Of a stretch of 64,000 nucleotides of DNA, positions 37,571 through 42,279 are shown piece after piece. A program made the translations under genes and the position numbers. Every line of letters starts with the position of its first letter. The first letter of the stretch is position 1. This DNA is from Streptomyces caniferus (GTDB taxonomy: Bacteria; Actinomycetota; Actinomycetes; Streptomycetales; Streptomycetaceae). The notes below the pieces were generated by a model. The model saw nothing but the letters and a program-made list of their open reading frames with translations. It ran no database searches and was not told the origin of the DNA. The DNA lies in NCBI RefSeq assembly GCF_009811555.1, contig NZ_BLIN01000002.1, positions 310,001-374,000 on the forward strand, written 5' to 3'.

Positions 37571-37863
37571 GTCCGACCTCCCAGTCGACGGTCCATCAGC
37601 CAGTCACGGGACTCCCCTCAGGGGCGAGGGTCGCCCGGGACGCTAGCGGAGGGGCGTGCAGGGCGGTAGACAGCGGAGTGACAACGCGGGAAACGGCGAA
37701 GAGGCCGGAATGCGTACGCCGTTGAGCCCCGCTCCCCCGCGGTGCGGGCGCCGCGCGCCGGGGGTGCACCCACGGTCCCCGGGGTGGCGCCGCCCCGCTG
37801 ACCGGGAGCGGACGTGTCCGGTTCCGGCGCGCGACGGCTGTTCCCCGCGGGCGCACCGCCCCG
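37571..37863. other. Divergent promoter region, no gene
   Basis: About 290 bp between the phospholipase start and the inverted repeat of the next operon. It is very GC-rich with many weak self-complementary patches and no reading frame with a ribosome site. Promoters of both operons should lie here; no clear -35/-10 pair could be picked out. Confidence 0.4.
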
Positions 37864-37933
37864 GAAAGATCATGTTCAGGGGGGCCGGGGAGACGCCTGA
37901 CGCGTCGCCCCCGGGCTCCGAAGATGATCTTTC
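37864..37933 (+). promoter_or_regulatory. Long inverted-repeat leader structure abutting the ribosome site
   Basis: GAAAGATCAT (37864-37873) and ATGATCTTTC (37924-37933) are perfect 10-bp reverse complements. Between them CCGGGG pairs with CCCCGG, with neighbouring G-C pairs, and GACGC pairs with GCGTC around CTGAC. The whole 70 nt can therefore fold as one nested hairpin. Its right arm ends immediately before GGAGGA (37934-37939), the ribosome site of the next gene. It could be an RNA switch, a translation-blocking hairpin or a DNA operator. Three AT-rich bases per arm in this GC-rich context argue against chance. Confidence 0.6.
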
Positions 37934-37949
37934 GGAGGAAGCACACGTC

Positions 37950-39170
37950 ATGGCACCACCGCCCATTCGCTCGTTCGCGCAGCTCGACGCCCTCGATCCC
38001 GCACGCCCCGTGGTGACGCTCTTCAGCGGCGGCCTCGACAGCTCGTACCTGCTGCTGAAGCTCCGGGAGCGGGGCATCCGCGAGGTGCACGCCGTCAGCG
38101 TCGACATCGGCGAGGACGAATCCACCGGGTACAAACGCCAGGTGGCGCAGGCGCTCGGCGCCGAGCTGCATGTGCTCGACAAGCGCGAGGAGTTCGCCGA
38201 CCGGTACGTGGCCAAAGCCATCGCCGCGCAGGCCGTCTATCTCGGCATCCACCCGGTGAGCTCCACCCTCAGCCGCCCGCTGATCGCCCAGGCGGCCGTG
38301 GAGCTGGCCGGCCGGCTCGGCGCCCAGGCCGTCCTCCACACGGCGAACCGCTCGCAGAACACCCTGCGGCGGCTCAACGGCGCGCTGGACCTGCTCGGTT
38401 ACGACGGTCCCTACGGCAGTCCGTACGACCTCACCCCCGTCGACCGCGACCGCAAGCACGAGGAGCTGCGGGAGGCGGGCGTCGATCTGCTCGTCGGCCG
38501 GATGGTCAGCGGCGACTCCAACCTGTGGTGCCGGGAGTTCGAGTCCGGCATCCTCGACGACCCCGAGGACCACGCGGTCCCCGAGGACATGTACCGGTGG
38601 AGCACGGTCCGTGCGGACGTCGCGCCGAGCAGGCTCACCGTCACGTTCGAGGCGGGCCTGCCGGTCGCCGTGGACGGCCGGCCCCTGCCGCTGACCGGGC
38701 TGATCGGTGAGCTCAACCAGCGGGCCGGTGCGTACGGCCTGGGCCGGTACTCCGGCCTGGAACACCTGGACCACGGGGAGAAGGTGCTCGAAATCCGGGA
38801 GATGCCCGCCGCGTCGCTGCTCCTGCGCTCCTACCGCCACGTCGAGAGCGCCTGCCTCGGCGCCGAGCTGATCCGTGAGAAGCAGCAGCTGGAGCAGGTC
38901 TGGGTCCGCGAGGCCCTGGAAGGGCGCTGGTTCGGCGAACTGCGCCTCGCCGCGCAGCACTTCATCGACGCCTGCGCGGCCCGCACGAGCGGATCGGTGG
39001 CCTGGGAGCTGCGGCTGGGCGGCGCGGAGACCCGCGCCATCACCGCACCGCGCCCCCGCTACCTGCGGGACCGCGAGGGCTGGGAGGCGCGCGCCATCGC
39101 CCTGGAGGCCGCCGCGCACACGCCGACCCCGTCGGCCCCCTCCCCCGCCGCCGCGCCCGTCCTCGTCTGA
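37950..39170 (+). CDS. Argininosuccinate synthase-like PP-loop ATP pyrophosphatase
   Basis: A 406-residue enzyme of the N-type ATP pyrophosphatase fold. The PP-loop is SGGLDSS at 26-32. IAAQAVYLGIHPVSSTLSRPLIAQ (91-114) matches the corresponding AxYLLxTxxARPLIAK block of argininosuccinate synthase. The next block, where ArgG has HGxTGKGNDQxRFE, reads LHTANRSQNTLRRLNGAL here, so the citrulline/aspartate site is altered. It probably adenylates a different ureido, amide or carboxyl group and attaches an amine. The start at 37950 follows GGAGGA. It leads a three-gene run with a dioxygenase and an exporter, behind a structured leader. It is not the housekeeping ArgG. Confidence 0.75.
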   Translation: MAPPPIRSFAQLDALDPARPVVTLFSGGLDSSYLLLKLRERGIREVHAVSVDIGEDESTGYKRQVAQALGAELHVLDKREEFADRYVAKAIAAQAVYLGIHPVSSTLSRPLIAQAAVELAGRLGAQAVLHTANRSQNTLRRLNGALDLLGYDGPYGSPYDLTPVDRDRKHEELREAGVDLLVGRMVSGDSNLWCREFESGILDDPEDHAVPEDMYRWSTVRADVAPSRLTVTFEAGLPVAVDGRPLPLTGLIGELNQRAGAYGLGRYSGLEHLDHGEKVLEIREMPAASLLLRSYRHVESACLGAELIREKQQLEQVWVREALEGRWFGELRLAAQHFIDACAARTSGSVAWELRLGGAETRAITAPRPRYLRDREGWEARAIALEAAAHTPTPSAPSPAAAPVLV

Positions 39171-39217
39171 GTCCCCGCCCGAGCACGCCCGAGCACGCCC
39201 ACAGGAGCATCCGCACG

Positions 39218-39976
39218 GTGAACACGATCACTTCTGCCTCTTCCCTCACCTCCACCTCTCCCGCCCCCGCCGCCCCCGCCCCCGCCGTCCACGCGCTGAC
39301 CGAACCCGGCGGCTACCTCATGCCGGCGCCGGAACTGTCCGCGCTGCTGGGCGTCGGCCCCGCCGACTGGGCCCGCTTCGGCGCCCATTGGGACGCACTG
39401 ACGCTGGACACGCACATGGCCGACGGCGGCACCTACCGCTTCCGCCGCTACGGCCAGTTCGAGGTGGACGCCTCGACGGACGCGCTCACGCGGCTGCCGC
39501 ACGCGCCGTACCTCCAGGAGAGCACCATCAATCCGCTCAACGGCGGGGTCGAGCGGCACTTCGACCCGCTGACGGACGAGTTCGCGGCCGACCCCCTGCT
39601 GCGTTCGCTGCTGCTCGCCATGGCCGCGCTGTTCACCGCCGTCGACGGCACCGCCGCCTGGAACATCAAGCTGCACCCGTACCGGATCACGGCGGGCGAC
39701 GACCAGACCGGGCAGCCCGCCCCCGAGGGGCGGCACCGCGACGGGGTCACGTTCATCACCTCGCTCATGATCAACAGGGTCAATGTCGAGGGCGGCGAGA
39801 GCGCCGTCTTCACCGACTCCGGCGAGGAGTTGCTCACCACCACCCTCACCAGCCCCGGCGACCTGCTGCTCGGCGACGACCGCCGTACCCTGCACTCCGT
39901 CACCCCGCTGCACCCGGTGGACACGACGGCTCCGGCACACCGGGACGTCCTCGTGGTCGCCTTCACCGCCCGCTGA
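39218..39976 (+). CDS. PF10014-type Fe(II)/2-oxoglutarate amino-acid dioxygenase
   Basis: A 252-residue enzyme of the 2OG-Fe dioxygenase group that includes L-isoleucine 4-hydroxylase. After an Ala/Pro-rich N-terminus the ELSALLGVGPADWARFGAHWDAL, YRFRRYGQFEV and QESTINPLNGGVERHFDPL segments are typical. The iron site is H173-x-D175 in GRHRDGVTF with H226 in TLHSV, and R242 near the end should bind 2-oxoglutarate. Relatives hydroxylate free amino acids. The GTG at 39218 follows AGGAG, 47 bp after the synthase-like gene, so both belong to one operon. Substrate is unknown. Confidence 0.8.
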   Translation: MNTITSASSLTSTSPAPAAPAPAVHALTEPGGYLMPAPELSALLGVGPADWARFGAHWDALTLDTHMADGGTYRFRRYGQFEVDASTDALTRLPHAPYLQESTINPLNGGVERHFDPLTDEFAADPLLRSLLLAMAALFTAVDGTAAWNIKLHPYRITAGDDQTGQPAPEGRHRDGVTFITSLMINRVNVEGGESAVFTDSGEELLTTTLTSPGDLLLGDDRRTLHSVTPLHPVDTTAPAHRDVLVVAFTAR

Positions 39977-40088
39977 CCGGCCGGCCCCGCCGGGCCCCGG
40001 CGCACCGTCACCACGGCGCGCCGGGGCCCGGCGGCTCCCCCGTCGAACGGCCGCACCCACCGCACACCGGACAAGGACCCCCACCACC

Positions 40089-41114
40089 ATGACCACCGCG
40101 ACCTCCCGCACCACACGTCCCGGCAACCGGCCCCTCTGGCTCATCGATGTGCCGGTCGTCCTGGTGGCCGTCGTCTGGGGCTCCAGCTACCTGGCCGCCA
40201 AGGAACTGGCCACCACGAGCACCGTCATCGCCCTGCTCCTGCTGCGGTTCCTGGTGGCCACGCCGGTGATGGCGGTGGTCGCGGGCCGCGGGATCACCCG
40301 GCTGAGCGCCCGGGAGATCGGCGCGGGCGCGGTCCTGGGCATGCTGTTGTCGGGGGTCCTGGTGCTGGAGACCTTCGGGGTGGTGCACACCTCGGCGACC
40401 AACGCGGGCCTCATCATCAGCCTGACCATGATCTTCACTCCGCTCGCGGAGTCCGTGGCGACCCGCACCCGCCCCACCGGGGCGTTCCTGGGCGCGGCGG
40501 CGCTGTCCGTGACCGGTGTGGCCCTGCTGACCCAGGGATCGGGGTTCACCACCCCGTCGGCCGGCGATCTCCTGATGCTGCTCGCGGCCGTCGCCCGCAC
40601 CGTGCACGTGATGGCCATGAGCCGTATGAAGTCGCTGCGTTCGACCGACTCCGGCGCGCTGACCGTCGTCCAGTTCCTCGGCGCCATCGCGGTCTTCGCG
40701 CTCGCTTCGCCCTTCGCCGCCGTCTCCCCGGTGGACGTCGCGGCCGCCTACTCCCCCCAGCAGTGGACCGCACTCCTCTACCTGGCCCTGATGTGCACGC
40801 TCTTCGCCTTCTTCGTCCAGATGTGGGCGGTGCGCCGCACCTCCCCGTCCCGGGTGAGCCTGCTGCTGGGCACCGAGCCGCTCTGGGCCGCCGTGATCGG
40901 CGTCGCCGCCGGCGGGGACCGGCCCGGCCTGCTCGGCGCGGCCGGAGCCGTCCTGGTCCTCATCGGTACGACCTGGGGCCGACAGGCCGCGGCACCGCCG
41001 GCCGCCGCGGAGGGCGAGCCCACGGCGGAGAACGGACCCACGGAGGGCGAGCCCGCGGCGGACGGCACGGCACCGCAACCGGCGGGCGCGGCCCAGGGCG
41101 CACCTTCGGCGTGA
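40089..41114 (+). CDS. EamA/DMT-family exporter
   Basis: A 341-residue permease with ten membrane helices in two EamA repeats. The first is VVAVVWGSSYLAAKELATTSTVIALLLLRFL and the second begins GDLLMLLAAVARTVHVMAMSRM. A hydrophilic Glu/Pro/Ala tail of about 40 residues follows the last helix. DMT proteins of this type export amino acids and their derivatives (RhtA, YdcZ groups). It is third in the run with the dioxygenase, 112 bp behind it, and AAGGA lies upstream. Its likely job is to release the operon's product or protect the cell from it. Confidence 0.85.
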   Translation: MTTATSRTTRPGNRPLWLIDVPVVLVAVVWGSSYLAAKELATTSTVIALLLLRFLVATPVMAVVAGRGITRLSAREIGAGAVLGMLLSGVLVLETFGVVHTSATNAGLIISLTMIFTPLAESVATRTRPTGAFLGAAALSVTGVALLTQGSGFTTPSAGDLLMLLAAVARTVHVMAMSRMKSLRSTDSGALTVVQFLGAIAVFALASPFAAVSPVDVAAAYSPQQWTALLYLALMCTLFAFFVQMWAVRRTSPSRVSLLLGTEPLWAAVIGVAAGGDRPGLLGAAGAVLVLIGTTWGRQAAAPPAAAEGEPTAENGPTEGEPAADGTAPQPAGAAQGAPSA

Positions 41115-41122
41115 TCGGCAGG

Positions 41123-41152
41123 AGGCCCGCCGGGAAACCTCCGGCCGGGCCT
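41123..41152. terminator. Terminator between exporter and regulator
   Basis: AGGCCCGCCGG pairs with CCGGCCGGGCCT (one bulge) around GAAACCT. It lies 9 bp past the exporter stop and between convergent genes, so it can serve both. Confidence 0.6.
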
Positions 41153-41205
41153 TCGAGCGCCAGGCCTTCGGGCGTCACGCCCCCGACACGACTGCCCGGA
41201 CATCC

Positions 41206-42279
41206 CTAGGCCACCGCGGCTCCCAGCTCGACCCGGGAGAGCAGCCCCCGTTCGACGGCCTTCATGCCCGCCTGGAACCTGCTGTCCGCCCCCAGCTTGG
41301 CCAGCAGCGGGGCGATGGTCCGGCGCAGCGTACGGTCGGACACCCCGAGGTTGCGGGCGATGGCCCCGTCCTTCAGCCCGGCGGCGAACATCCGCAGGAC
41401 CATCCGCTCCCGCTCGGTCAACTCCACCTCGTGGACGCGCCGTTCGGGAAACCCGGAACCAAGTCCCGGACCGCGGCCGGGCCCGGGACCAGGACCGGGC
41501 TCGGGCCCCGCCAGCCGCTCCCCATACACCCAGCAATGGTCGAAGACCTGCCGGAGCAGTCCGCACATCGCCGCCCCGTGAATCTCCAGCGCCGTCACCT
41601 CGTCGCTGTCCGAGCTCAGGGTGACGAGCGCCTGCACGTCGTCGACCAGGGTCAGCCGGAACGGCAGCGTCATCGCGAGCCGCACCCGGGCCCCCGCGCG
41701 CCGCAGCCCGCACAGATGCGCATGGCCGGACGGGTTCTCGGGCGTCGAGTGCAGATGGATGGCGCGCAGCGACACCCCCCGGGCGAGAACCTGGCCGCTG
41801 CGCCGCGCGGCCTCGCCCCAGCGTTCCGGCGCGGCCAGGTCGTTCGGGCGCAGCGCGAGGATCTCGCGGCGCGCCGTGGCCGCCATCGCGTCCAGGCTCT
41901 CCGCGATCCGCCGCTGCCCCACCAGCACCTCCACCCGGGCGTGCTGCGGGGCTCCCGAGGACTGGAAGGCAGGCAGACTGTCGGCCAGTGCGCCGAACGC
42001 GGCGCGCAGTGAGCGCAGTCCGACGAGCCGGTCCGCCGTCGTCTGCTCCGCGGTGTCCAGCAGCAGCGCGAAGGCGGTCTCCGGGGACACCGGGGCGGGC
42101 AACGCCCCGTCGCCGGCCGGCCGCACCAGCCCCATGGTCGCCAGATACCGCAGGGTCTCCTGGAACTGCCGGCTCGTCATACCGAGCTTCTCGGCAGCCT
42201 GCGGGGGCGGGCAATCGCCTTCCTGGAGAAGCAAGTTGAAGACCTCGTCGGCCCGGTCGGGGCCGGAACGCAAACGCAT
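41206..42279 (-). CDS. TrmB-N/LuxR-C type transcriptional regulator
   Basis: A 357-residue regulator. Residues about 8-60 form a TrmB-like winged helix (VFNLLLQEGDCPPPQAAEKLGMTSRQFQETLRYLATMGLVRP). A phospholipase-D-like sensory middle follows (MAATARREILAL, then LRAIHLHSTPENPSGHAHLCGLRRAGARVRL). A Gly-Pro repeat linker leads to a C-terminal LuxR helix-turn-helix (LTERERMVLRMFAAGLKDGAIARNLGVSDRTLRRTIAPLLAKLG). The ATG at 42279 has GGAGGTGTC upstream; a GTG at 42306 is weaker. It faces the synthase-dioxygenase-exporter run and is the obvious candidate to control it, though chitinase is the divergent neighbour. Confidence 0.85.
   Translation of the reverse strand: MRLRSGPDRADEVFNLLLQEGDCPPPQAAEKLGMTSRQFQETLRYLATMGLVRPAGDGALPAPVSPETAFALLLDTAEQTTADRLVGLRSLRAAFGALADSLPAFQSSGAPQHARVEVLVGQRRIAESLDAMAATARREILALRPNDLAAPERWGEAARRSGQVLARGVSLRAIHLHSTPENPSGHAHLCGLRRAGARVRLAMTLPFRLTLVDDVQALVTLSSDSDEVTALEIHGAAMCGLLRQVFDHCWVYGERLAGPEPGPGPGPGRGPGLGSGFPERRVHEVELTERERMVLRMFAAGLKDGAIARNLGVSDRTLRRTIAPLLAKLGADSRFQAGMKAVERGLLSRVELGAAVA

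Follow-up and report, generated by a model that had tools for sequence, protein, structure and literature searches.

An ArtA-like relative of argininosuccinate synthase, a PF10014 dioxygenase and an exporter form a probable nitrile amino-acid operon in Streptomyces caniferus

In a 64,000-nucleotide stretch of the Streptomyces caniferus genome (contig NZ_BLIN01000002.1, positions 310,001 to 374,000; hereafter the window), three plus-strand genes encode an argininosuccinate synthase-like (ArgG-like) PP-loop enzyme, a PF10014-type Fe(II)/2-oxoglutarate dioxygenase and an EamA-type exporter, and the gene of a LuxR-type regulator faces them. We propose that this operon probably converts a free amide amino acid to an oxidised nitrile amino acid and exports the product, and that the nitrile step is very probably catalysed by the ArgG-like enzyme. 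From comparison of sequences we infer the nitrile activity of the window protein, the export and the regulation. A preliminary description of the window had placed four genes at these positions, which coordinates and domain matches confirm, and had read them as a self-contained operon for a small molecule, a modified amino acid in free form that an exporter would release, in which the ArgG homologue would no longer be an ArgG; the present analysis supports that view. In agreement with the same description, a domain search of the four encoded proteins returns no argininosuccinate lyase, carrier protein or non-ribosomal peptide synthetase (NRPS).

The ArgG-like protein scores 552.8 bits against the NCBIfam model NF038212, 'argininosuccinate synthase-related protein' (cut-off 425), and stays under all five argG equivalog cut-offs listed, for example 183.7 versus 268.2 bits for TIGR00032 and 194.7 versus 334 bits for NF001770. 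It has the fold of argininosuccinate synthase (ASS) and an intact PP-loop, SGG(L)D, and its nearest solved relative, in a ligand-free fold comparison, is ArtA (PDB 9leh and 9lei). ArtA and NitB are ATP-dependent nitrile enzymes whose references are tied to the NRPS product auranthine; the targets of the ATP-dependent nitrile enzymes include amino-acid side chains, by elimination those of ArtA and NitB (PMC13060819 for both). The ArtA residues that contact the amide, Q146, S197 and D199, correspond to Q136, S187 and D189 of the window protein; the shift of 10 positions matches the entry numbering in the structural comparison. These three residues are kept in all 94 ArgG-like rows (49/49 from cassettes and 45/45 others; two duplicate other rows exactly, and some nearly do) of an alignment that also holds four true ArgG rows.

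The opposite side of the active site is rebuilt. In the numbering of human ASS1, T119 and D124 are residues that we take to bind aspartate, and N123, R127, S180 and E270 those that we take to lie on the citrulline side. The equivalent of D124 is S or T in 94/94 family rows (T in the window protein), that of T119 is N in 91/94, the window protein among them, with T kept in one, and the equivalents of G122, Y282 and S189 are Q, R and E, respectively, in every row. On the citrulline side, N123, R127 and S180 are conserved in 94/94 rows and E270 in 90/94. The changed substrate-binding block reported in the preliminary description is genuine and extends to the whole family. A retained citrulline-like side together with a rebuilt aspartate side is what would be expected if the enzyme activated an amide before eliminating AMP.

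In a maximum-likelihood tree of 45 rows, with the four true ArgG rows as outgroup, the ArgG-like family including ArtA splits from true ArgG with 100/100 support, and ArtA is nested inside the family. ArtA clusters with cassette proteins of Rhizobium, Mesorhizobium and Agrobacterium (100/100), and this group joins the Vibrio-type cassettes at 95/93; an earlier, larger tree is concordant, flagged with a warning of long branches meeting. ArtA shares 65–66% identity with the three rhizobial cassette proteins (L099, L100 and L101); for the other 22 listed rows the figure is at most ~51%. By its position in the tree, the single characterised activity lies within the cassette family, near the cassettes with the second gene order described below. 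The window branch is farther off from ArtA, and the nitrile activity of the window protein would be bracketed by the family rather than transferred from a close orthologue. Auranthine is a fungal (Penicillium) product, and its nitrile is derived from glutamine. If ArtA is likewise fungal, its placement suggests a transfer of ArtA from bacteria to a fungus.

The three genes recur together outside this strain, as a check of genome context shows. A search with the ArgG-like protein through species-representative genomes found 147 confirmed relatives, of which the best 80 were used; this choice enriches near kin of the query, and the cassette counts likewise, and some of the fetched loci are short. 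A PF10014 gene adjoins the ArgG-like gene on the same strand (within 3 kb) in 39/80 loci, and an EamA gene does so too in 37/80. Across 996,503 bases of the same loci that lie more than 3 kb from the ArgG-like genes, the window PF10014 and EamA proteins have 0 matches (tblastn, E ≤ 1e-5). The co-occurrence is far beyond chance, and the trio is a real unit. In addition, the distance matrix of the ArgG-like proteins correlates with those of PF10014 (r = 0.815, 49 sets) and EamA (r = 0.934, 46 sets), with 0/999 permutations as high in either case, correlations that partly reflect whole-genome shared ancestry. In the two cassettes that lack EamA, a LysE-type translocator (L044) or a seryl-tRNA synthetase (SerRS) gene (L077) occupies its place.

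The hosts of the 39 cassette loci include Actinomycetota, Pseudomonadota, a Sorangium (Myxococcota) and a metagenome-assembled Gloeocapsa genome (Cyanobacteriota). A plasmid search matched eight records, six of which were examined. Plasmids of Rhizobium, Mesorhizobium and Agrobacterium carry the second gene order, EamA–ArgG-like–PF10014; on a Vibrio plasmid the usual order is accompanied by a LysR-like gene (by eye). The ArgG-like/PF10014 pair of a Bradyrhizobium plasmid has no annotated exporter adjoining it, and the variant on a Burkholderia cenocepacia replicon is NRPS-linked, its genes being named by eye. The three close kin of ArtA sit on conjugative plasmids of plant-associated Alphaproteobacteria. 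In genome samples drawn out of larger groups, the ArgG-like gene exceeds the family cut-off in 9/150 same-genus genomes, and, around two proteobacterial members, the gene is found in 4/295 and 2/300 genomes, seed genomes counted; the four non-seed proteobacterial genomes have the usual trio and a LysR-like gene (the latter by eye). All four same-genus PF10014 matches of at least 69% identity, the window's among them, lie just downstream of an ArgG-like gene. This rare and patchy occurrence fits horizontal spread.

The dioxygenase matches PF10014 at 228.1 bits (cut-off 23.1) and stays well short of the HilB equivalog NF042428 (23.4 bits versus a cut-off of 350). The catalytic HxD (H173 and D175), H226 and R242, which the preliminary description had reported as intact, are indeed present and are conserved in 49/49 aligned cassette dioxygenases, the window's included, so that key residues of both enzymes are retained in their homologues. 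The fold neighbours are 3pl0 (the nearest), 8w8h, IDO, HrmJ, TqaL and BelL, and the cassette enzymes comprise an HPYRI-type (45) and an FQNRI-type (4). By analogy with IDO, HilB, HrmJ and BelL, the substrate is presumably a free L-amino acid.

In the scheme that we favour, the ArgG-like enzyme would bind ATP in its intact PP-loop and adenylate a free amide amino acid on the oxygen of its side-chain amide, in parallel with the adenylation of the citrulline ureido oxygen by argininosuccinate synthase. Because the aspartate site is lost, no nucleophile would attack the adenylated amide, and AMP would be eliminated to leave the nitrile. The PF10014 dioxygenase would oxidise a side-chain carbon, before or after the nitrile step, with hydroxylation as the simplest outcome; EamA would export the product, and the LuxR-type protein (a LysR-type protein in many proteobacteria) would control expression of the operon.

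Several observations weigh against this scheme. The Pfam argininosuccinate synthase domains still match the ArgG-like protein, at 99.4 and 82.5 bits (cut-off 27), its identity to ArtA is just ~42–43%, and, among the three amide-contact residues, S197 and D199 are also found in the four true ArgG rows, which leaves Q146 alone as diagnostic. The cassette is rare, with the complete trio in 4/150 same-genus genomes (including G002, the genome of locus L005, identical over 6000 bases). The dioxygenase is missing from 41 of the 80 relatives, and for 30 of them the fetched stretch includes an NRPS-type adenylation gene; the ArgG-like family works in at least two settings. Finally, PF10014 relatives of 60, 58, 52 and 51% identity (L087–L090), from the same genus, intermix with the cassette rows in the PF10014 tree and have no ArgG-like gene nearby, and the dioxygenase may therefore act first, on an ordinary amino acid.

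The preliminary description had let the ArgG-like enzyme couple an amine or ureido group to the amino acid. In such a pathway the enzyme would activate an amide or ureido group and join an amine to it, giving an amidine, guanidine or amide, while the dioxygenase hydroxylates and EamA exports. In favour of this, the ASS fold and the PP-loop chemistry are kept, and so are the citrulline-side residues (E270 in 90/94 rows); however, the aspartate-side residues are altered throughout the family, an amine-supplying or lyase gene is absent among the four window genes, and the characterised member within the tree, ArtA, catalyses amide dehydration only, according to PMC13060819. With ArtA inside the family, the aspartate motif changed and the amide residues kept, loss of water is likelier, and we consider amine joining unlikely. 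It is highly improbable that the gene is a redundant member of the arginine pathway whose neighbours adjoin it by chance: its relatives are called 'argininosuccinate synthase' or '-related protein' wherever they are named (best 120 of 685), yet the protein falls short of all the argG equivalog cut-offs listed, a separate ArgG (L083) is encoded in the same genome, and the neighbours are conserved.

In a further alternative, the nitrile is made as proposed and the dioxygenase closes a ring next to the electron-withdrawing nitrile, like HrmJ and BelL, or desaturates; these enzymes are ~29–34% and ~29% identical to the window dioxygenase and sit on very long branches, and such an outcome seems improbable. 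Alternatively, the operon could feed its product as a building block into a larger peptide assembled elsewhere, with EamA unrelated or a self-protection pump. In L077, L097 and L100, related ArgG-like/PF10014 pairs do have NRPS genes in their vicinity (annotated in L100, read by eye and from adenylation-domain matches in the other two), and the references of ArtA and NitB point the same way. Against this, no NRPS is found among the window genes, an open reading frame (ORF) of the adenylation cluster occurs in L044 only among the 39 cassette loci (although ORF clustering missed the L077 NRPS), and the covariation of exporter and ArgG-like protein argues for a small product common to both; we give a building-block role little probability. 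Conversion to a free, exported nitrile amino acid remains the reading that we prefer.

The type of enzyme (ArtA) and the logic of the operon (a PF10014 enzyme with an amino-acid exporter, as in the IDO operon) were each known already. ArtA and NitB have the fold, the PP-loop and the amide-contact residues in common with the window protein; they are tied to an NRPS product, whereas a dioxygenase and an exporter accompany the window enzyme, in a unit with no NRPS. Argininosuccinate synthase (ArgG/ASS1) agrees with the window protein in fold, PP-loop, Pfam domains and most residues of the citrulline side, and differs in its aspartate site and in the equivalog scores that the window protein does not reach. 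The IDO operon of Bacillus and the Hil operon of Pantoea and Pseudomonas also have a PF10014 dioxygenase acting on a free amino acid, some with an RhtA-family exporter; unlike the window, they have an SDR-type reductase, the Hil core has a second dioxygenase, and no ArgG-like enzyme is named in the available text (PMC3684760). No SDR-type reductase domain is found in the four window genes. The cyclopropanases HrmJ (hormaomycin) and BelL (belactosin) have the PF10014 fold and catalytic residues, and their substrate is a free amino acid that bears an electron-withdrawing group, nitro and not nitrile (PMC10764440). QueC/ToyM, PesC and CalN likewise form nitriles with ATP (PMC13060819), in other families and on other substrates.

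We found no description in open PMC papers of the union of enzyme type and operon logic in a putative stand-alone nitrile-amino-acid operon, or of this operon; as far as searched, the locus is not part of a known cluster, and the preliminary description, too, knew of no pathway with exactly this gene set. In the part of the literature covered, every description of ArgG-like nitrile synthetases is connected with auranthine, an NRPS product. If a compact trio with two gene orders, spread over four bacterial phyla, makes free nitrile amino acids, these would become a general class of bacterial products and no longer a curiosity. The trio would also correct the 'argininosuccinate synthase(-related)' label on named database proteins, would offer a candidate enzyme for amide-to-nitrile biocatalysis on free amino acids, and would suggest a bacterial origin of ArtA.

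As to the substrate, L-glutamine with oxidation at C4 is a tentative guess, made because amino-acid side chains are among the nitrile-enzyme targets (PMC13060819) and because several characterised PF10014 enzymes attack C4. Glutamine is preferred since its C4 adjoins the amide carbon; asparagine has no C4 hydrogen. A glutamine-derived nitrile oxidised at C4 would be 2-amino-4-cyano-4-hydroxybutanoic acid, the cyanohydrin of aspartate semialdehyde, and it is conceivable, if doubtful, that the product is such a latent cyanide donor. If so, the compound exported by EamA could free hydrogen cyanide outside the cell, as a bacterial cyanogenic amino acid made by a rare, patchily distributed trio of four phyla that also resides on conjugative plasmids of root-nodule bacteria; the auranthine producer may have acquired one enzyme of this trio as ArtA.

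Table 1. Features of the operon and its surroundings, in window positions
Feature	Position	Strand	Remarks
ArgG-like PP-loop enzyme (argG_rel, NF038212)	37950..39170	+	Probable ATP-dependent amide-to-nitrile synthetase, ArtA type; start ATG 37950, stop 39170; GGAGGA upstream (by eye)
PF10014 (BsmA/IDO-type) Fe(II)/2-oxoglutarate dioxygenase	39218..39976	+	GTG start; PF10014
EamA/DMT-family exporter	40089..41114	+	PF00892, two repeats
LuxR-type (GerE) regulator	41206..42279	-	PF00196; tail-to-tail with the operon
Leader hairpin	37864..37935	+	Perfect inverted repeat of 10 bp, with its right arm against the ribosome-binding site

The plus-strand genes (Table 1) are separated by gaps of 47 and 112 bases, in a genome of 9.1 Mb in 10 contigs, and the nearest named relatives of the ArgG-like gene are from Streptomyces. 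A phospholipase-C-like gene flanks the locus on one side and a GH18 gene on the other; neither has a match in any of the 80 related loci, some of them short, and the unit is therefore taken as the trio plus the regulator. Besides the four same-genus genomes with a complete trio, a fifth (G101; L091 7503–9556) has a broken cassette, with the ArgG-like and PF10014 genes in pieces and EamA matching over most of its length.

Members of the family are also found in NRPS settings. The window genome has a second argG_rel gene (L085 9098–12952; G000:C5 ~1090100–1094000) with an NRPS adenylation-carrier gene and a gene for a thioesterase next to it, which makes L085 a candidate second, NRPS-linked nitrile pathway. 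In Salmonella enterica subsp. diarizonae (L077 995–14244; also L123), an NRPS-like gene of 2990 amino acids is followed by argG_rel and PF10014 and then by genes for a second SerRS and a phosphopantetheinyl transferase; E. coli genomes gave no DNA match to the L077 genes. On the Mesorhizobium huakuii plasmid (L100 9020–13140), an annotated NRPS gene follows the EamA–argG_rel–PF10014 trio. The extra SerRS of L077 could confer self-resistance. SerRS as a cassette-wide self-resistance was rejected: at least two copies that exceed the family cut-off occur in 6/27 genomes with the ArgG-like/PF10014 pair versus 4/11 without it. Among these 38 genomes, the window genome has one copy, and SerRS lies directly downstream in L077 and ~7 kb away in L006. 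Adenylation-domain codes beside NRPS-type members of the family were also tried as a clue to the amide substrate and not used; with the code positions and assignments that we presume, the repeated DMxYLGL(I/V)Y could not be assigned, and one code, in L043, is Gln-like.

The exporter matches PF00892 at 99.8 bits (cut-off 28.2). Of the TrmB/LuxR-type label that the regulator had been given, the LuxR half stands, with a C-terminal GerE domain at 41 bits (cut-off 23.5), and the TrmB half is unconfirmed, since no TrmB domain is listed at E ≤ 1 and the N-terminus has just weak matches to other helix-turn-helix domains. A relative of the regulator has the same place and orientation in 8/39 cassette loci by ORF clustering, and lies within 3 kb in 9/80 loci by tblastn, and divergent LysR-type regulators stand upstream of the trio in 16/39 cassette loci. 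The leader, folded over 37860–37960, has a z-score of -4.48, with 0/200 shuffles equally stable, and a riboswitch check gives no Rfam match. The 10-bp repeat of the window is not seen in 12 other Streptomyces leaders (the start of five placed by a rough scan), and the leader of locus L001 has an 11-bp repeat of different sequence. By eye, a GC-rich block around CCGGGTCCGGTCATGGCCGGGC is common to 10 of these 12 cassette leaders.

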